The position numbers and the translations under genes are program-made. A DNA stretch of 50,657 nt from a virus, in IMG/VR virus record IMGVR_UViG_3300042010_000112, positions 1-50,657 of that record; one strand, given 5' to 3'. The notes beneath the pieces are model-generated. The model ran no database searches and had not been told where the DNA came from. It was given only the letters and a program-made list of their open reading frames with translations. The number at the start of each line of letters is the position of its first letter. The first letter of the stretch is position 1. This document shows positions 1,761 through 11,465 of this stretch, in pieces.

Positions 1761-2147
1761 ATGTATCCACACAACTATTTCCCTAAACGTAAAACAGCAG
1801 CTGAGCGTCTGCGTGACGGCGAAGCATATCGGGCAATGTTAGATAAACAAACAGCAGCCGAAGCAGAGCGTACTCGGTTCAAAGGACCTGAGCCAATCCA
1901 GGAAGCCATAGTGGCTTATGGAGCTGGCTTACAACCATACTTCAATGACATCCGGGGTGATAGCACTTGGAGCAATGCACAGATCTGTGGTAAGTTAGAA
2001 ATAGCCATGCATGAGATCCGTGACGGCTTTACCGAAAGGCAGAAAGCTTATAAGACATATGAGCCTACGGTTGTATTTGTAGAAGAAGGCAGACGTGGAT
2101 ATTTCTCGTTGCGTTTAGATGGTTGGGAAATAGGGAAGATTAGCTAA
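1761..2147 (+). CDS. Hypothetical protein before RlmN-like gene
   Basis: A 128-residue protein starting MYPHNYFPKRK after a good GAGG ribosome site. An in-frame ATG at 1707 is rejected because it lies within the tRNA-operon terminator. The N-terminal half is charged and helix-prone with several Ala-Glu-Arg runs; the C-terminal part has alternating beta-like segments. No family is recognised. Its stop codon abuts the ATG of the radical SAM gene (TAATGG), so the two are translationally coupled and may act together. Confidence 0.7.
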   Translation: MYPHNYFPKRKTAAERLRDGEAYRAMLDKQTAAEAERTRFKGPEPIQEAIVAYGAGLQPYFNDIRGDSTWSNAQICGKLEIAMHEIRDGFTERQKAYKTYEPTVVFVEEGRRGYFSLRLDGWEIGKIS

Positions 2148-3028
2148 TGGATCTTATCTTTAAGCAACATGTTTCACAACTCGATCAATCGGTTAACTTC
2201 GAACACCGCTTTGCTGACCACCCTGGGATGCTAGAGGCACGTTACGTACGTCGGGTTGATGACTACTTCATTGTTTACTTGTCTTCTCAGACAGGTTGTG
2301 AACAGGCTTGCCGGATGTGTTGGCTGACAGCAACAGGGCAAAACAAGACACGCGATGTTACTGTACAGGAATACTTGGACCAGGCTAAAGAAGTCCTCAA
2401 GTATTACGATGAACGTAACCCAGCTAAGATGGTACACTTTAACTTCATGGCACGCGGTGAACCATTCGCCAATAAGATCTTTCTAGAGCATGCAGATGAA
2501 GTATTGGCTGGACTCGCCACTTTAGCTAAAGAACGTGGACTGGAATACAAGTTCCTGATTTCTACGATCTTTCCCGAAGAGGTAGGGTACATTGATCTTA
2601 CTGAGATCTTTAAAGAACCCGCGTTATATCCAGAACTGTACTACTCTATCTACAGCATGGACAAAAAGTTCCGTAGACGGTGGTTACCAAAGGCAGCCTC
2701 CCCAGAACGAGCATTAGACGAATTAAAGGCATGGCAAGAGCACACGGGTAAAATCCCAAAGATTCACTATGCGTTCATTAATAATGAAAACGATAGTCTT
2801 GGTGCAGTTAAAGCGATCTGTGACGAAATCGTTGAACTAGAACTCGATGTGAATTGGAACGTAGTTCGTTATAATCCACCAGAAGGACATTACTCCAAGG
2901 AAACAGTAGAAGGGCAAATACACTACCTAGCTGGTTACATTCGTAGTCGGTTACCTAAGGCACGTGTTAAAGTAATCCCTCGGGTTGGTACGGATGTCCA
3001 AGCGAGTTGTGGTACGTTCTTGAAATAA
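2147..3028 (+). CDS. RlmN-like radical SAM protein
   Basis: A 293-residue radical SAM enzyme. The cluster motif CxxxCxxC is C51, C55, C58 in the RlmN-style context SSQTGC. RGEP at 103-106 fits the SAM-binding GEP motif, the IYSMD and AFINNEND regions match later RlmN strands, and SCG near the end (C288) matches the methyl-carrier Cys of RlmN. Known RlmN proteins methylate A2503 of 23S rRNA and certain tRNAs. Two oddities: the N-terminal accessory domain of RlmN (about 90 residues) is missing, and the residue aligned with the second catalytic Cys (C118 of E. coli RlmN, seven before the first cluster Cys) is Tyr44. So it may have a different substrate or mechanism. The tRNA cluster next door makes a tRNA substrate attractive, but that is inference. 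Confidence 0.8.
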   Translation: MDLIFKQHVSQLDQSVNFEHRFADHPGMLEARYVRRVDDYFIVYLSSQTGCEQACRMCWLTATGQNKTRDVTVQEYLDQAKEVLKYYDERNPAKMVHFNFMARGEPFANKIFLEHADEVLAGLATLAKERGLEYKFLISTIFPEEVGYIDLTEIFKEPALYPELYYSIYSMDKKFRRRWLPKAASPERALDELKAWQEHTGKIPKIHYAFINNENDSLGAVKAICDEIVELELDVNWNVVRYNPPEGHYSKETVEGQIHYLAGYIRSRLPKARVKVIPRVGTDVQASCGTFLK

Positions 3029-3052
3029 AATACTGGTGCTGTAATAGTATAC
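3029..3052 (+). promoter_or_regulatory. Promoter-like element before ncRNA candidate
   Basis: AATACT, six bases, GTAATAGTATAC: same blocks and spacing as the element at 1087-1110 that precedes the tRNA operon. It directly follows the stop codon of the RlmN-like gene. Confidence 0.5.
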
Positions 3053-3360
3053 GACCAAGGCATGTGTTGTAAGCGGTTTACATGCTGAACGGTGGAAGAT
3101 ACAAATAACAACGACGGCTGTCAACCGTCAAACCGAATGTCTTATTTACGCATGTGACAGTGTGTCTATAAGAAGGTCGTGTAATAATGTTGTGGATATC
3201 CGATAGGGCCAGCCATTGGGTGCTGGACGTAGATATCTTCAATCTCTTATTAGGCGGCGCCGGATAACACCAAGATCTCTGATTAATTGGGGATAGAGCA
3301 GGCCGGCCTTGGAACTATCTGGTTTAACTTAAGTATTGAGTCCTACCTGCGGGTAGGGCT
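3053..3360 (+). ncRNA. Candidate structured noncoding RNA
   Basis: A stretch of roughly 300 nt without a plausible gene, bounded by a promoter-like element (3029-3052) and a terminator hairpin (3342-3357). It contains several hairpins: GCATGT/ACATGC (about 3060-3085), GACGG/CCGTC with a 7-nt loop CTGTCAA (about 3113-3131) that looks like an Asp GTC anticodon arm, a GATATC/GATATC stem enclosing CCAGC/GCTGG (about 3196-3237), and GCCGG/CCGGC enclosing a further stem (about 3258-3306). No complete tRNA fits. It could be a regulatory RNA, a decoy with a tRNA anticodon arm, or fused tRNA relics. Confidence 0.45.
3342..3357 (+). terminator. Terminator hairpin of the ncRNA candidate
   Basis: CCTACC, loop TGCG, GGTAGG, then GGCTTTATGC. 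Followed at once by another promoter-like element. Confidence 0.65.
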
Positions 3361-3376
3361 TTATGCTGTGTAAAAG

Positions 3377-3400
3377 AATACTCGCGGTAATACAATATAC
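3377..3400 (+). promoter_or_regulatory. Promoter-like element
   Basis: AATACT, four bases, GTAATACAATATAC; a looser copy of the elements at 1087 and 3029. It precedes the gene at 3466 by about 65 bp. Confidence 0.4.
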
Positions 3401-3465
3401 AGGACTATACGTTCAAGCACTTAGAAAGTTACGAGCATCGTAATTAACGCTTGAAAGGTATAAAC

Positions 3466-3777
3466 ATGTTTTACAACGATTGGTCCGAAAGTGGTATTGA
3501 TGGTTTGATGTCTGACTTCTCCATTCACGAAAGTGATTTGGCTGGTGTAACAATCATTCACGCTGACTATACTTACGAAGATTACAGTGGGTCCGCCTAC
3601 GTGCTCTACGTTAAGGAAGGAAAGTATTATGAAGTCCATGGTTCTCACTGCTCCTGTATGGGACTGGAAGGACAATGGGAGCCTGAAGAATGCGCCCTGT
3701 ACGAGTTGGCAGAAATGCTAACACGCCGAGGTGATTCCGTCATCGGTAAAGACCTTCAATCTTACTTGGATAGATGA
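3466..3777 (+). CDS. Conserved phage small protein with HCSCxGLEGQWEPE motif
   Basis: A 103-residue protein. The start is the ATG with AAAGG a few bases upstream; a TTG 15 bp earlier is rejected. The centre reads YEDYSGSAYVLYVKEGKYYEV, followed by HGSHCSCMGLEGQWEPE. I recall this motif from small uncharacterised proteins in many tailed phages and some bacteria. The His and two Cys could bind a metal, but no function is known to me. It stands as its own unit between a promoter-like element and the terminator at 3798-3817. Confidence 0.8.
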   Translation: MFYNDWSESGIDGLMSDFSIHESDLAGVTIIHADYTYEDYSGSAYVLYVKEGKYYEVHGSHCSCMGLEGQWEPEECALYELAEMLTRRGDSVIGKDLQSYLDR

Positions 3778-3895: not shown

Positions 3896-4249
3896 ATGCG
3901 ATTCAATTGGGAACCCGGTCGACAAGGAACAGGTTACGAGAAATTACAACTCTTAAACCGTTGGAAGTTCTTTAGTCGATTTAAATGGGATCTTTACTTA
4001 CTGCGTTACCCGGTAGGCTCAGGTATCCCTAGACATCGTGATCCATTACCTAACCACAGGCATTACCGGTTAAACATCTATCTGCGCAACGCAAGTGCAG
4101 GTGGTGTCCCTGAACATGATGATGTAATCATAAGCAACCGCTTCTTTACATTGTTCAGACCAGATTTGTCAACACACAGCGTTAGCCCCGTAACTAAAGG
4201 TACGCGCTATGTCTTAAGCTTTGGCTTATCAAAACAAATTAACGTCTAA
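3896..4249 (+). CDS. Minimal 2OG-Fe(II) oxygenase-like protein
   Basis: A 117-residue protein showing the signature of the double-stranded beta-helix 2-oxoglutarate/Fe(II) dioxygenases. The HxD iron ligands are H47 and D49 (PRHRDP), the distal His is H94 (THSVSP), and R104 ten residues later (KGTRYVLSFG) would bind the 2OG carboxylate. RLNIYLR at 58-64 is the usual core strand. The family hydroxylates or demethylates proteins, nucleic acids or small molecules; the substrate here is unknown. At 117 residues it is near the minimum for a functional fold. The ATG follows a TTAGGA ribosome site. It lies just ahead of rtcB, whose start is 28 bp past its stop, so they probably share a transcript. 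Confidence 0.7.
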   Translation: MRFNWEPGRQGTGYEKLQLLNRWKFFSRFKWDLYLLRYPVGSGIPRHRDPLPNHRHYRLNIYLRNASAGGVPEHDDVIISNRFFTLFRPDLSTHSVSPVTKGTRYVLSFGLSKQINV

Positions 4250-4277: not shown

Positions 4278-5543
4278 ATGAAACAAGAAACAAAGACATT
4301 TGAAATCATTGGTGGAGAACCCGAACCGGGAACTAAACCGATCAAAGGCTGGACTGTCGGCGTGCCGGTAGAACCAGAAGCTGTTAAACAACTGAAGAAC
4401 ATTGCTGCACTTCCGTTCATCTATTCCCACGTCGCAGTAATGCCTGACGTTCATTTGGGTAAAGGTGCAACGGTTGGTTCTGTGATCGCTACTAAAGGCG
4501 CTATCGTGCCAGCAGCAGTCGGTGTAGACATTGGGTGCGGAATGGCAGCCCAACGCCTGCGCTTCTCCTCAGACGCGCTTCCAGAGTCTCTGGGGCATCT
4601 CCGTGCCGCTATTGAATCGTGCGTACCTCATGGACGTACGGATAATGGCGGTAAGAACGATCGTGGTGCTTTTGGTACCGTGTCTATCTTCAATCATCAA
4701 GTGAAAGCTGTACGCGAAGAAGCTGAAAAGCTCCGCCGGCAACTGGACTCGATTGTTGAACGGCATCCAAAACTGAAGCGTGCTTCTGAGAAAGCCTGGA
4801 ACCACGTAGGTACACTTGGTACAGGTAACCACTTCATCGAACTGTGTCTAGATGAAACAGATCGTGTGTGGATTATGCTGCACTCTGGTTCTCGTGGTAT
4901 TGGTAACGCTATCGGTTCGTACTTCATCGAGAAAGCCAAAGAAGAGATGGGTCGGTTCTTCATCCATCTGCCGGACAAAGATCTGTCATATCTTCCAGAA
5001 GGTTCCCGTTACTACAACGATTACGTTGAAGCGGTATCCTGGGCGCAGCGCTTTGCTGCATTGAACCGTTCGGTAATGATGCACGCTGCACTGGGCGCTA
5101 TTCACCGTACGTTGGGTCTGCCGATTGATTCTGATATGGAAGCAATCAACTGCCACCACAACTACGTGTCTGAAGAACGACACATGGGACAAAACGTTAT
5201 CGTAACTCGTAAGGGTGCGGTAGCTGCTCATGAAGGTACTCTGGGGATCATCCCTGGATCGATGGGTGCTAAGTCTTTCATCGTTCGCGGTAAAGGTAAT
5301 CGTGATTCCTTCTGCTCGTGTTCGCATGGAGCTGGTCGTGTCATGTCGCGTACCCAAGCTGCCAAGACCTTTACACTGGAAGATCACATCCGTGACACAG
5401 CTGGTGTTGAATGCCGTAAGGATATCGAGGTAATCGATGAAACACCTAAGGCATACAAAAACATCGAAGACGTGATGTCTGCTCAGGAAGAACTGGTAGA
5501 TATCGTTCATACACTGAAACAATTCCTGTGCGTGAAAGGATGA
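4278..5543 (+). CDS. rtcB: RNA-splicing ligase RtcB
   Basis: A 421-residue RtcB, close to the usual length of 400-480. RtcB joins 2',3'-cyclic phosphate or 3'-phosphate RNA ends to 5'-OH ends using GTP and Mn2+, and repairs cleaved tRNA or rRNA. All key motifs are present: D57 and H59 in MPDVHLGKG, C87 in GVDIGCGM, H185 in GNHF, H202 in HSGSRG, HHNYV at 293-297, PGSMG at 326-330 and the guanylylated His H350 in SHGAGR. Start chosen at 4278, after a GTGAGG ribosome site; the longer ORF overlaps the upstream gene. It leads an operon with three unknown genes. No archease gene is seen. Its job here is most likely repair of tRNAs cut by host anticodon nucleases. Confidence 0.95.
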   Translation: MKQETKTFEIIGGEPEPGTKPIKGWTVGVPVEPEAVKQLKNIAALPFIYSHVAVMPDVHLGKGATVGSVIATKGAIVPAAVGVDIGCGMAAQRLRFSSDALPESLGHLRAAIESCVPHGRTDNGGKNDRGAFGTVSIFNHQVKAVREEAEKLRRQLDSIVERHPKLKRASEKAWNHVGTLGTGNHFIELCLDETDRVWIMLHSGSRGIGNAIGSYFIEKAKEEMGRFFIHLPDKDLSYLPEGSRYYNDYVEAVSWAQRFAALNRSVMMHAALGAIHRTLGLPIDSDMEAINCHHNYVSEERHMGQNVIVTRKGAVAAHEGTLGIIPGSMGAKSFIVRGKGNRDSFCSCSHGAGRVMSRTQAAKTFTLEDHIRDTAGVECRKDIEVIDETPKAYKNIEDVMSAQEELVDIVHTLKQFLCVKG

Positions 5544-11318: not shown

Positions 11319-11338
11319 ATCTGCTCCAGACGGCATAA

Positions 11339-11358
11339 AGCCAGCACAGCGGCTGGCT
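11339..11358 (-). terminator. Hairpin terminator
   Basis: AGCCAGC pairs with GCTGGCT; on the minus strand it is followed by TTTATGCC. It separates the unit at 11466 and above from the small membrane gene. The 107 bp from 11359 to 11465 hold no gene; two GAATTC-containing blocks sit in inverted context there. Confidence 0.6.
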
Positions 11359-11465
11359 CTATTAATAGGTGGAATTCACGTGGCACCAACACACCGACGG
11401 GTAGGTGATAAGTTGGGAGATGTTCCACGGAATTCCGATTCGTCTACATATAATTGCATAACGAG

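Follow-up and report, generated by a model that had tools for sequence, protein, structure and literature searches.

The window analysed here is the whole of a 50,657-base virus record (IMG/VR, IMGVR_UViG_3300042010_000112). Its source is a phiKZ-like jumbo phage, whose closest named relatives are the Pseudomonas phages D6, RVTF4, Psa21 and 201phi2-1. The features around the locus, given by window position, are as follows.

204-1656: run of tRNA genes (tRNA-Leu, Leu, Ser, Cys, Thr; ARAGORN) next to the locus
2147-3028: RlmN-like radical SAM gene directly 5' of the RNA gene (Pfam Radical_SAM, below the cut-off)
3029-3052, plus strand: promoter-like block, AATACT-N6-GTAATAGTATAC, beginning directly after the RlmN-like stop codon
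3053-3365, plus strand: RNA gene, predicted transcript (synteny in 7 genomes plus covariation)
3338-3361, plus strand: terminator hairpin of about 10 pairs, followed by TTTATG
3466-3777: small gene with no family assigned, 3' of the RNA gene
4278-5540: RtcB gene (E 2.5e-126), downstream of the RNA gene
11330-11448, minus strand: RNA-A, a second small RNA gene

Between the RNA and RtcB, positions 3896-4249 encode a small protein with weak similarity to 2OG-Fe(II) oxygenases, below the Pfam cut-off.

Borders of the RNA gene and its promoter class

The earlier note on this DNA had described a gene-free stretch at 3053-3360, preceded by the same block as the tRNA operon and closed by a hairpin terminator, and each of these elements was recovered. 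AATACT-N6-GTAATAnTATAC is present in two exact copies in 50.6 kb, at 1087 and 3029, against about 4e-5 expected by simple arithmetic; the copy at 1087 directly precedes tRNA-Leu (1112). No plus-strand open reading frame of at least 40 amino acids was found between 3029 and 3450. The terminator is seen at 3338-3361, and 7 of 9 of its pairs carry double changes in the alignment of relatives. The stretch itself is real, but its ends needed adjustment: the likely transcript runs from about 3049-3053 to about 3365, just past the terminator hairpin. The RNA would be about 310 nt long, and the gene including its promoter-like block occupies 3029-3361.

A third promoter-like block, a close relative of the exact one, was observed at 3377, ahead of the open reading frame at 3466-3777. 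The leader that it opens (3377-3465) holds an inverted repeat, CGTTCAAGC / GCTTGAA, which is conserved in several relatives.

The stretch could be read as a cis element, that is, as the leader of the downstream gene or the 3' UTR of the RlmN-like gene and not as a separate RNA, and its position between two co-directional genes suits this reading. However, a promoter block stands before it and a terminator after it, the next gene has its own block at 3377, and homologs of the RNA core in other phages adjoin quite different genes. We consider a cis element very unlikely.

We scanned 15 genomes for the motif class TACT-N7-TRATANTATRY, with the reversed pattern as the control. When up to one mismatch was allowed, related genomes had 3-8 sites per ~300 kb compared to 0-2 for the control, and one of the 15 genomes had no site. 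Exact sites numbered 36 in the 15 genomes. By manual tally, 25 of the 36 precede a tRNA at a distance of up to about 210 nt, and the remainder precede window-type RNA (3), other apparently noncoding stretches (4) or protein genes (4). Among the motif-led protein genes is the nuclear shell gene of phiKZ, PHIKZ054 (NC_004629 45470-45491). The motif is also found in phiKZ at 270616-270595 on the minus strand, just before a ~100-nt ncRNA between PHIKZ298 and PHIKZ297. The block in the window falls within this phiKZ-like stable-RNA promoter class, the sites of which lie a short distance ahead of tRNA and ncRNA genes and are rarer when the pattern is reversed. We infer that it is a putative promoter driving transcription of the RNA gene, of a class otherwise mainly serving tRNA genes. 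The conserved part of phiKZ late promoters is only a TATG overlapping the start (PMC7598289), and the ending of many motif sites in TATG or TATA would fit promoters of that type. For the phiKZ ncRNA, the authors of the Grad-seq study mapped no start site and favoured processing from a 3' UTR (PMC8545117), and some sites of the motif may therefore not be promoters.

Three further stretches were noticed in the relatives. A ~290-nt conserved noncoding stretch with a terminator follows the motif at L117 (genome G004) and L120 (G006). At L112 (Psa21) and L130 (G001), a conserved noncoding stretch of ~120 nt has the motif on one side and a gene on the other. At L107 (Viktualia) and L115 (G004), an apparent structured RNA (GCGCCTCGTAAGCGTGAGAAGACCC .. 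GAGGGAAAAGACCCGTAG) is transcribed behind a tRNA.

Conservation and fold of the short form

A gene-free gap of ~320-390 nt after the RlmN-like gene is also present in D6, RVTF4 and Psa21, and the IMG/VR genomes L005, L007, L008 and L013 have it at the same position. L014 and L015 carry the same stretch, and the distinct genomes total 8 including the window. BLASTN with the gap as the query gave matches at the edges only; shared motifs became visible once the gap sequences were aligned. RlmN and RtcB are neighbours for part of the RNA family only. In bacterial contigs, the RlmN-like gene was found at 13 loci, none of them titled Pseudomonas.

The minimum free energy (MFE) of the window strand was -103.6 kcal/mol (z -2.6), and 0 of 100 shuffles were as good. 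The nested stems reported in the earlier note are present, but the topology drawn from them was incomplete, as a pseudoknot and a loop-loop contact escape both the eye and MFE folding. The proposed fold has the following parts, all on the plus strand.

3060-3085: hairpin 1, stem GCATGT/ACATGC, with pseudoknot strand 1 in its loop
3074-3079: pseudoknot strand 1, CGGTTT
3113-3129: hairpin C, stem GACGG/CCGTC, loop CTGTCAA at 3118-3124
3130-3135: pseudoknot strand 2, AAACCG, behind hairpin C and pairing with 3074-3079
3140-3173: hairpin 3, apical loop GTGACA at 3154-3159, predicted to kiss the loop of hairpin C
3176-3258: long variable arm, base GTCGT (3176-3180) / GCGGC (3254-3258)
3260-3326: 3' arm, with the hairpin GC-AGGCCG-GC at 3298-3307

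With this structure, 88.7% of cells were paired in the 8 distinct sequences, compared to 67.7% when shuffled and 38-47% with slid partners, the last being a control that favours the proposed structure because the structure was built from the same alignment. Double changes were found in 41 of 58 pairs versus 25.3 in shuffles, although such counts do not fully separate out phylogeny, and the covariation score was 0.67 versus 0.24. None of 500 shuffles reached any of these measures. The case is carried by the size of the gap between observed and control values, together with independent genomes found later. Built on the 5' 118 nt of the RNA, covariance model R1 found one copy in each of the 7 other genomes of the short-form group, with E values of 1e-12 to 1e-22.

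Individual helices follow the same pattern. The letters of the hairpin 1 stem differ almost completely among genomes, yet pairing is complete (4-6 pairs). Hairpin C has double changes in 5 of 5 pairs and is 96-100% paired. The pseudoknot strands read CGGUUU/AAACCG, GCGGU/ACCGC or GUGGU/ACCAC depending on the genome, and UUUCGG/CCGAAG in a second group; in L005, L007 and Psa21, the uninterrupted pairing is CGG/CCG only. RNAalifold paired the hairpin 1 loop with sequence after the terminator (columns 51-55 / 357-361); we rejected this as a GU-rich chance pairing because the loop changes in step with its other partner, the strand that follows hairpin C. At the base of the long variable arm, two U-G wobbles are common to all eight genomes. 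The loop of the 3' arm contains a self-complementary GGCC at 3301-3304, a possible self-pairing site.

On this covariation, the RNA has a compact core in which an H-type pseudoknot joins hairpin 1 to the strand behind hairpin C, with two long arms projecting from it. The covariance analysis that the earlier note had proposed thus revealed extensive compensatory changes in related phages. With synteny in 8 genomes and 9 more cores elsewhere, its stand-alone structured ncRNA with a promoter and terminator of its own is upheld, on firmer grounds than the note had offered, and the structured RNA gene at this stretch is almost certainly real. Judged from the sequences, giant Pseudomonas phages appear to keep this gene for its folded shape and not for its letters.

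The hairpin C loop and the tRNA question

Hairpin C had been taken for an anticodon-like arm with Asp GTC in position, and the RNA for a possible tRNA mimic, an anticodon-nuclease decoy or the relics of fused tRNAs. The description of the arm was accurate: a 5-bp stem closes the 7-nt loop CTGTCAA at 3118-3124, all eight close genomes have GUC where an anticodon would lie, and RtcB and tRNA genes are close by. It was also correct that no complete tRNA fits, as neither ARAGORN nor the Rfam tRNA model (RF00005) gave a cloverleaf in the stretch. However, the D-arm, T-arm and CCA are absent. U33 is not kept even among close genomes (CTGTCAA, CAGTCAA, CCGTCAA), and the anticodon letters are not stable, becoming GCC or ACC in relatives (TCGCCAA, ATGCCAAA, TGACCAG, CACCA), and in each case the loop of hairpin 3 changes with them.

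In 15 of 15 genomes, 4-6 complementary pairs link the loop of hairpin C with the apical loop of hairpin 3; for a few sequences, the loop borders were assigned manually on the basis of the folds. The contact is UGUCA/UGACA in the window, and the kissing pairs co-vary among lineages as GUCA/UGAC, GCCA/UGGC and ACCA/UGGU. In the 15-genome alignment A6, pair 12-51 is GC in 11 genomes and AU in 4, pair 13-50 is UA in 8 and CG in 6 (the one unpaired cell being a one-column alignment shift in G004), and pair 14-49 is CG in all 15. When loops were swapped between classes, the contact often fell to 2-3 pairs. Complementary loops were also present in two genomes outside the training of the covariance model, G009 and G005.

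On this sequence evidence, the supposed anticodon loop kisses the loop of hairpin 3, and CTGTCAA is one half of a kissing loop within the same RNA and not an anticodon. The loop-loop covariation largely refutes the tRNA mimic, decoy or relic, which we regard as extremely improbable, and we rejected it as an account of the RNA.

The wider family, its function and its relatives in kind

Core homologs were sought first in the sequence that follows the promoter motif in further genomes and then by DNA similarity. They were found in PhiPA3, PA1C and its near relatives, HPP-Temi, 201phi2-1, Viktualia, L010 (G004) and L012 (G006). A second covariance model, R2, found the two genomes outside its training, G009 (E 8e-12) and G005 (E 9e-11), both with the motif upstream and with ACCA/UGGU loops. 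The total is 17 distinct genomes, 8 with the short form and 9 with a fused form, with near-identical relatives left out; the core alignment joins few independent lineages, by hand-curated boundaries. Weak model matches in HRDY3 (E 0.04), PA1C (0.41) and phiKZ/G004 (0.6-0.7) were taken as chance, as were the matches examined beyond known genomes when broad DNA patterns were run on viral contigs. The core was not detected in phiKZ, KTN4, EL, OBP, Noxifer, Goslar, Phabio or the enterobacterial jumbo phages RAY and FBKp24; an empty search alone shows little, but this absence would mean that nucleus-forming phages as a whole do not require the RNA.

In the nine genomes with the fused form, a 5' domain consisting of ATCTCCC, a stem, CCCGTC and GGTGC precedes the core. 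Window-type phages carry this domain as a separate small RNA, RNA-A, which was found in the window, Psa21 (L111), L126, L134 and RVTF4 (L176); no copy was located in D6, L008 or L013. RNA-A shares the ATCTCCC..CCCGTC..GGTGC module with the 5' domain in 201phi2-1, PhiPA3, PA1C and others. Its fold has a z of -4.1, and it has a terminator and a degenerate promoter block. Phabio has RNA-A alone. A small basic protein of the RHPxQLRIV type, a possible partner, is encoded after the fused RNA in 201phi2-1-like genomes and, in Phabio, after the lone RNA-A (L101, L121, L125, L191, L196). A resemblance of CCCGUC and GAAGU to 16S rRNA h44 was dropped because 8-letter matches are expected at these lengths.

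The conserved C-rich UCUCCC of RNA-A could pair with Shine-Dalgarno sequences. This would suit a trans-acting regulatory sRNA, in which the loops and UCUCCC pair with phage or host mRNAs and the structure serves mainly for stability; the promoter, the terminator and the small size of the RNA are also consistent with an sRNA. However, typical sRNAs have conserved seed letters and less elaborate folding, whereas the conserved loop letters of the core are explained by internal pairing and change between lineages, and we consider this reading unlikely. We find it similarly unlikely that the RNA copies the shape of a host RNA and acts as an inhibitor of, or a decoy for, a host defence or host RNA-binding protein. 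Fast divergence of sequence with preservation of shape, patchy distribution and a variable gene neighbourhood would agree with a decoy, but no Rfam RNA has a similar sequence and structure. None of the Rfam 15 families, including GOLLD, ROOL and OLE, was matched at the gathering threshold, and the best match in E-value mode was a chance-level lncRNA (0.15).

Our preferred reading, to which we assign a probability of roughly 0.6, is that phiKZ-like jumbo Pseudomonas phages carry a stand-alone gene for a structural ncRNA, which probably forms a particle in a GOLLD- or ROOL-like way. The GGCC hexaloop at the end of the 3' arm, [UA]GGCC[AG] with varying closing pairs, is found in 13 of 15 genomes and could join two copies of the RNA, so that the RNA is probably an RNA-only or RNA-protein particle. 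The hexaloop is missing from D6 and L013 (the other GGCC of L013 lies outside the 3' arm), and self-pairing is therefore not universal. The candidate particle would act within a neighbourhood of tRNAs, RNA modification and RNA repair (the tRNA genes, the RlmN-like enzyme and RtcB); a role as a particle or in translation is, taken by itself, tentative. A speculative version of comparable weight is an undescribed family of phage RNA particles in which the 5' domain A and the pseudoknot-kissing core B are joined in certain jumbo phages and transcribed apart in others, the RNA pairing with itself through the GGCC hexaloop and influencing translation or RNA repair in the infected cell.

To our knowledge, nucleus-forming jumbo phages have been studied almost only for their proteins, and few ncRNAs have been reported from them. 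We found no description of this RNA in the open-access literature searched, and earlier reports elsewhere may exist. The family has a testable fold and occurs in cultured phages (PhiPA3, PA1C, 201phi2-1, Psa21 and D6). It is also a case of one RNA whose domains are joined in one set of genomes and encoded apart in another, and its promoter motif flags further RNA genes.

Four known systems invite comparison. Hairpin C resembles the anticodon arm of a tRNA (RF00005), but the other tRNA parts are absent and its loop covaries with another loop. Dimer-initiation kissing loops of the HIV-1 type are short hairpins with a self-complementary hexaloop; here the hexaloop is UGGCCA or a variant, known from sequence, and the likeness is an analogy and not a relationship. 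The ncRNA between PHIKZ298 and PHIKZ297, which was detected on Northern blots and by Grad-seq (PMC8545117), likewise lies directly behind the same promoter-like motif in a tRNA-rich region. However, it is about 100 nt with two stem-loops, and the Grad-seq authors proposed that it arises by processing of a 3' UTR; as a candidate homolog it was rejected, having no match to the core models.

GOLLD and ROOL are encoded close to tRNA islands and make kissing-loop contacts (PMC12286853). The RNA described here is likewise phage-encoded and near tRNA genes, has no conserved coding and folds elaborately, with pseudoknots and kissing loops; in GOLLD, too, the 3' part is conserved and the 5' part less so (PMC12286853). 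In contrast, it is about 310 nt (split) to ~510 nt (fused) where GOLLD members exceed 800 nt, its domain order and motifs differ, it has no Rfam match, and a homo-oligomeric, RNA-only complex is suggested by the self-complementary hexaloop in 13 of 15 genomes. Free-standing, structured, near tRNAs and with a covarying pseudoknot and kissing loops, it has the marks of an ornate phage RNA. By this analogy, the RNA would work like GOLLD and ROOL yet form a separate family, a compact relative in kind of the ornate phage RNAs.
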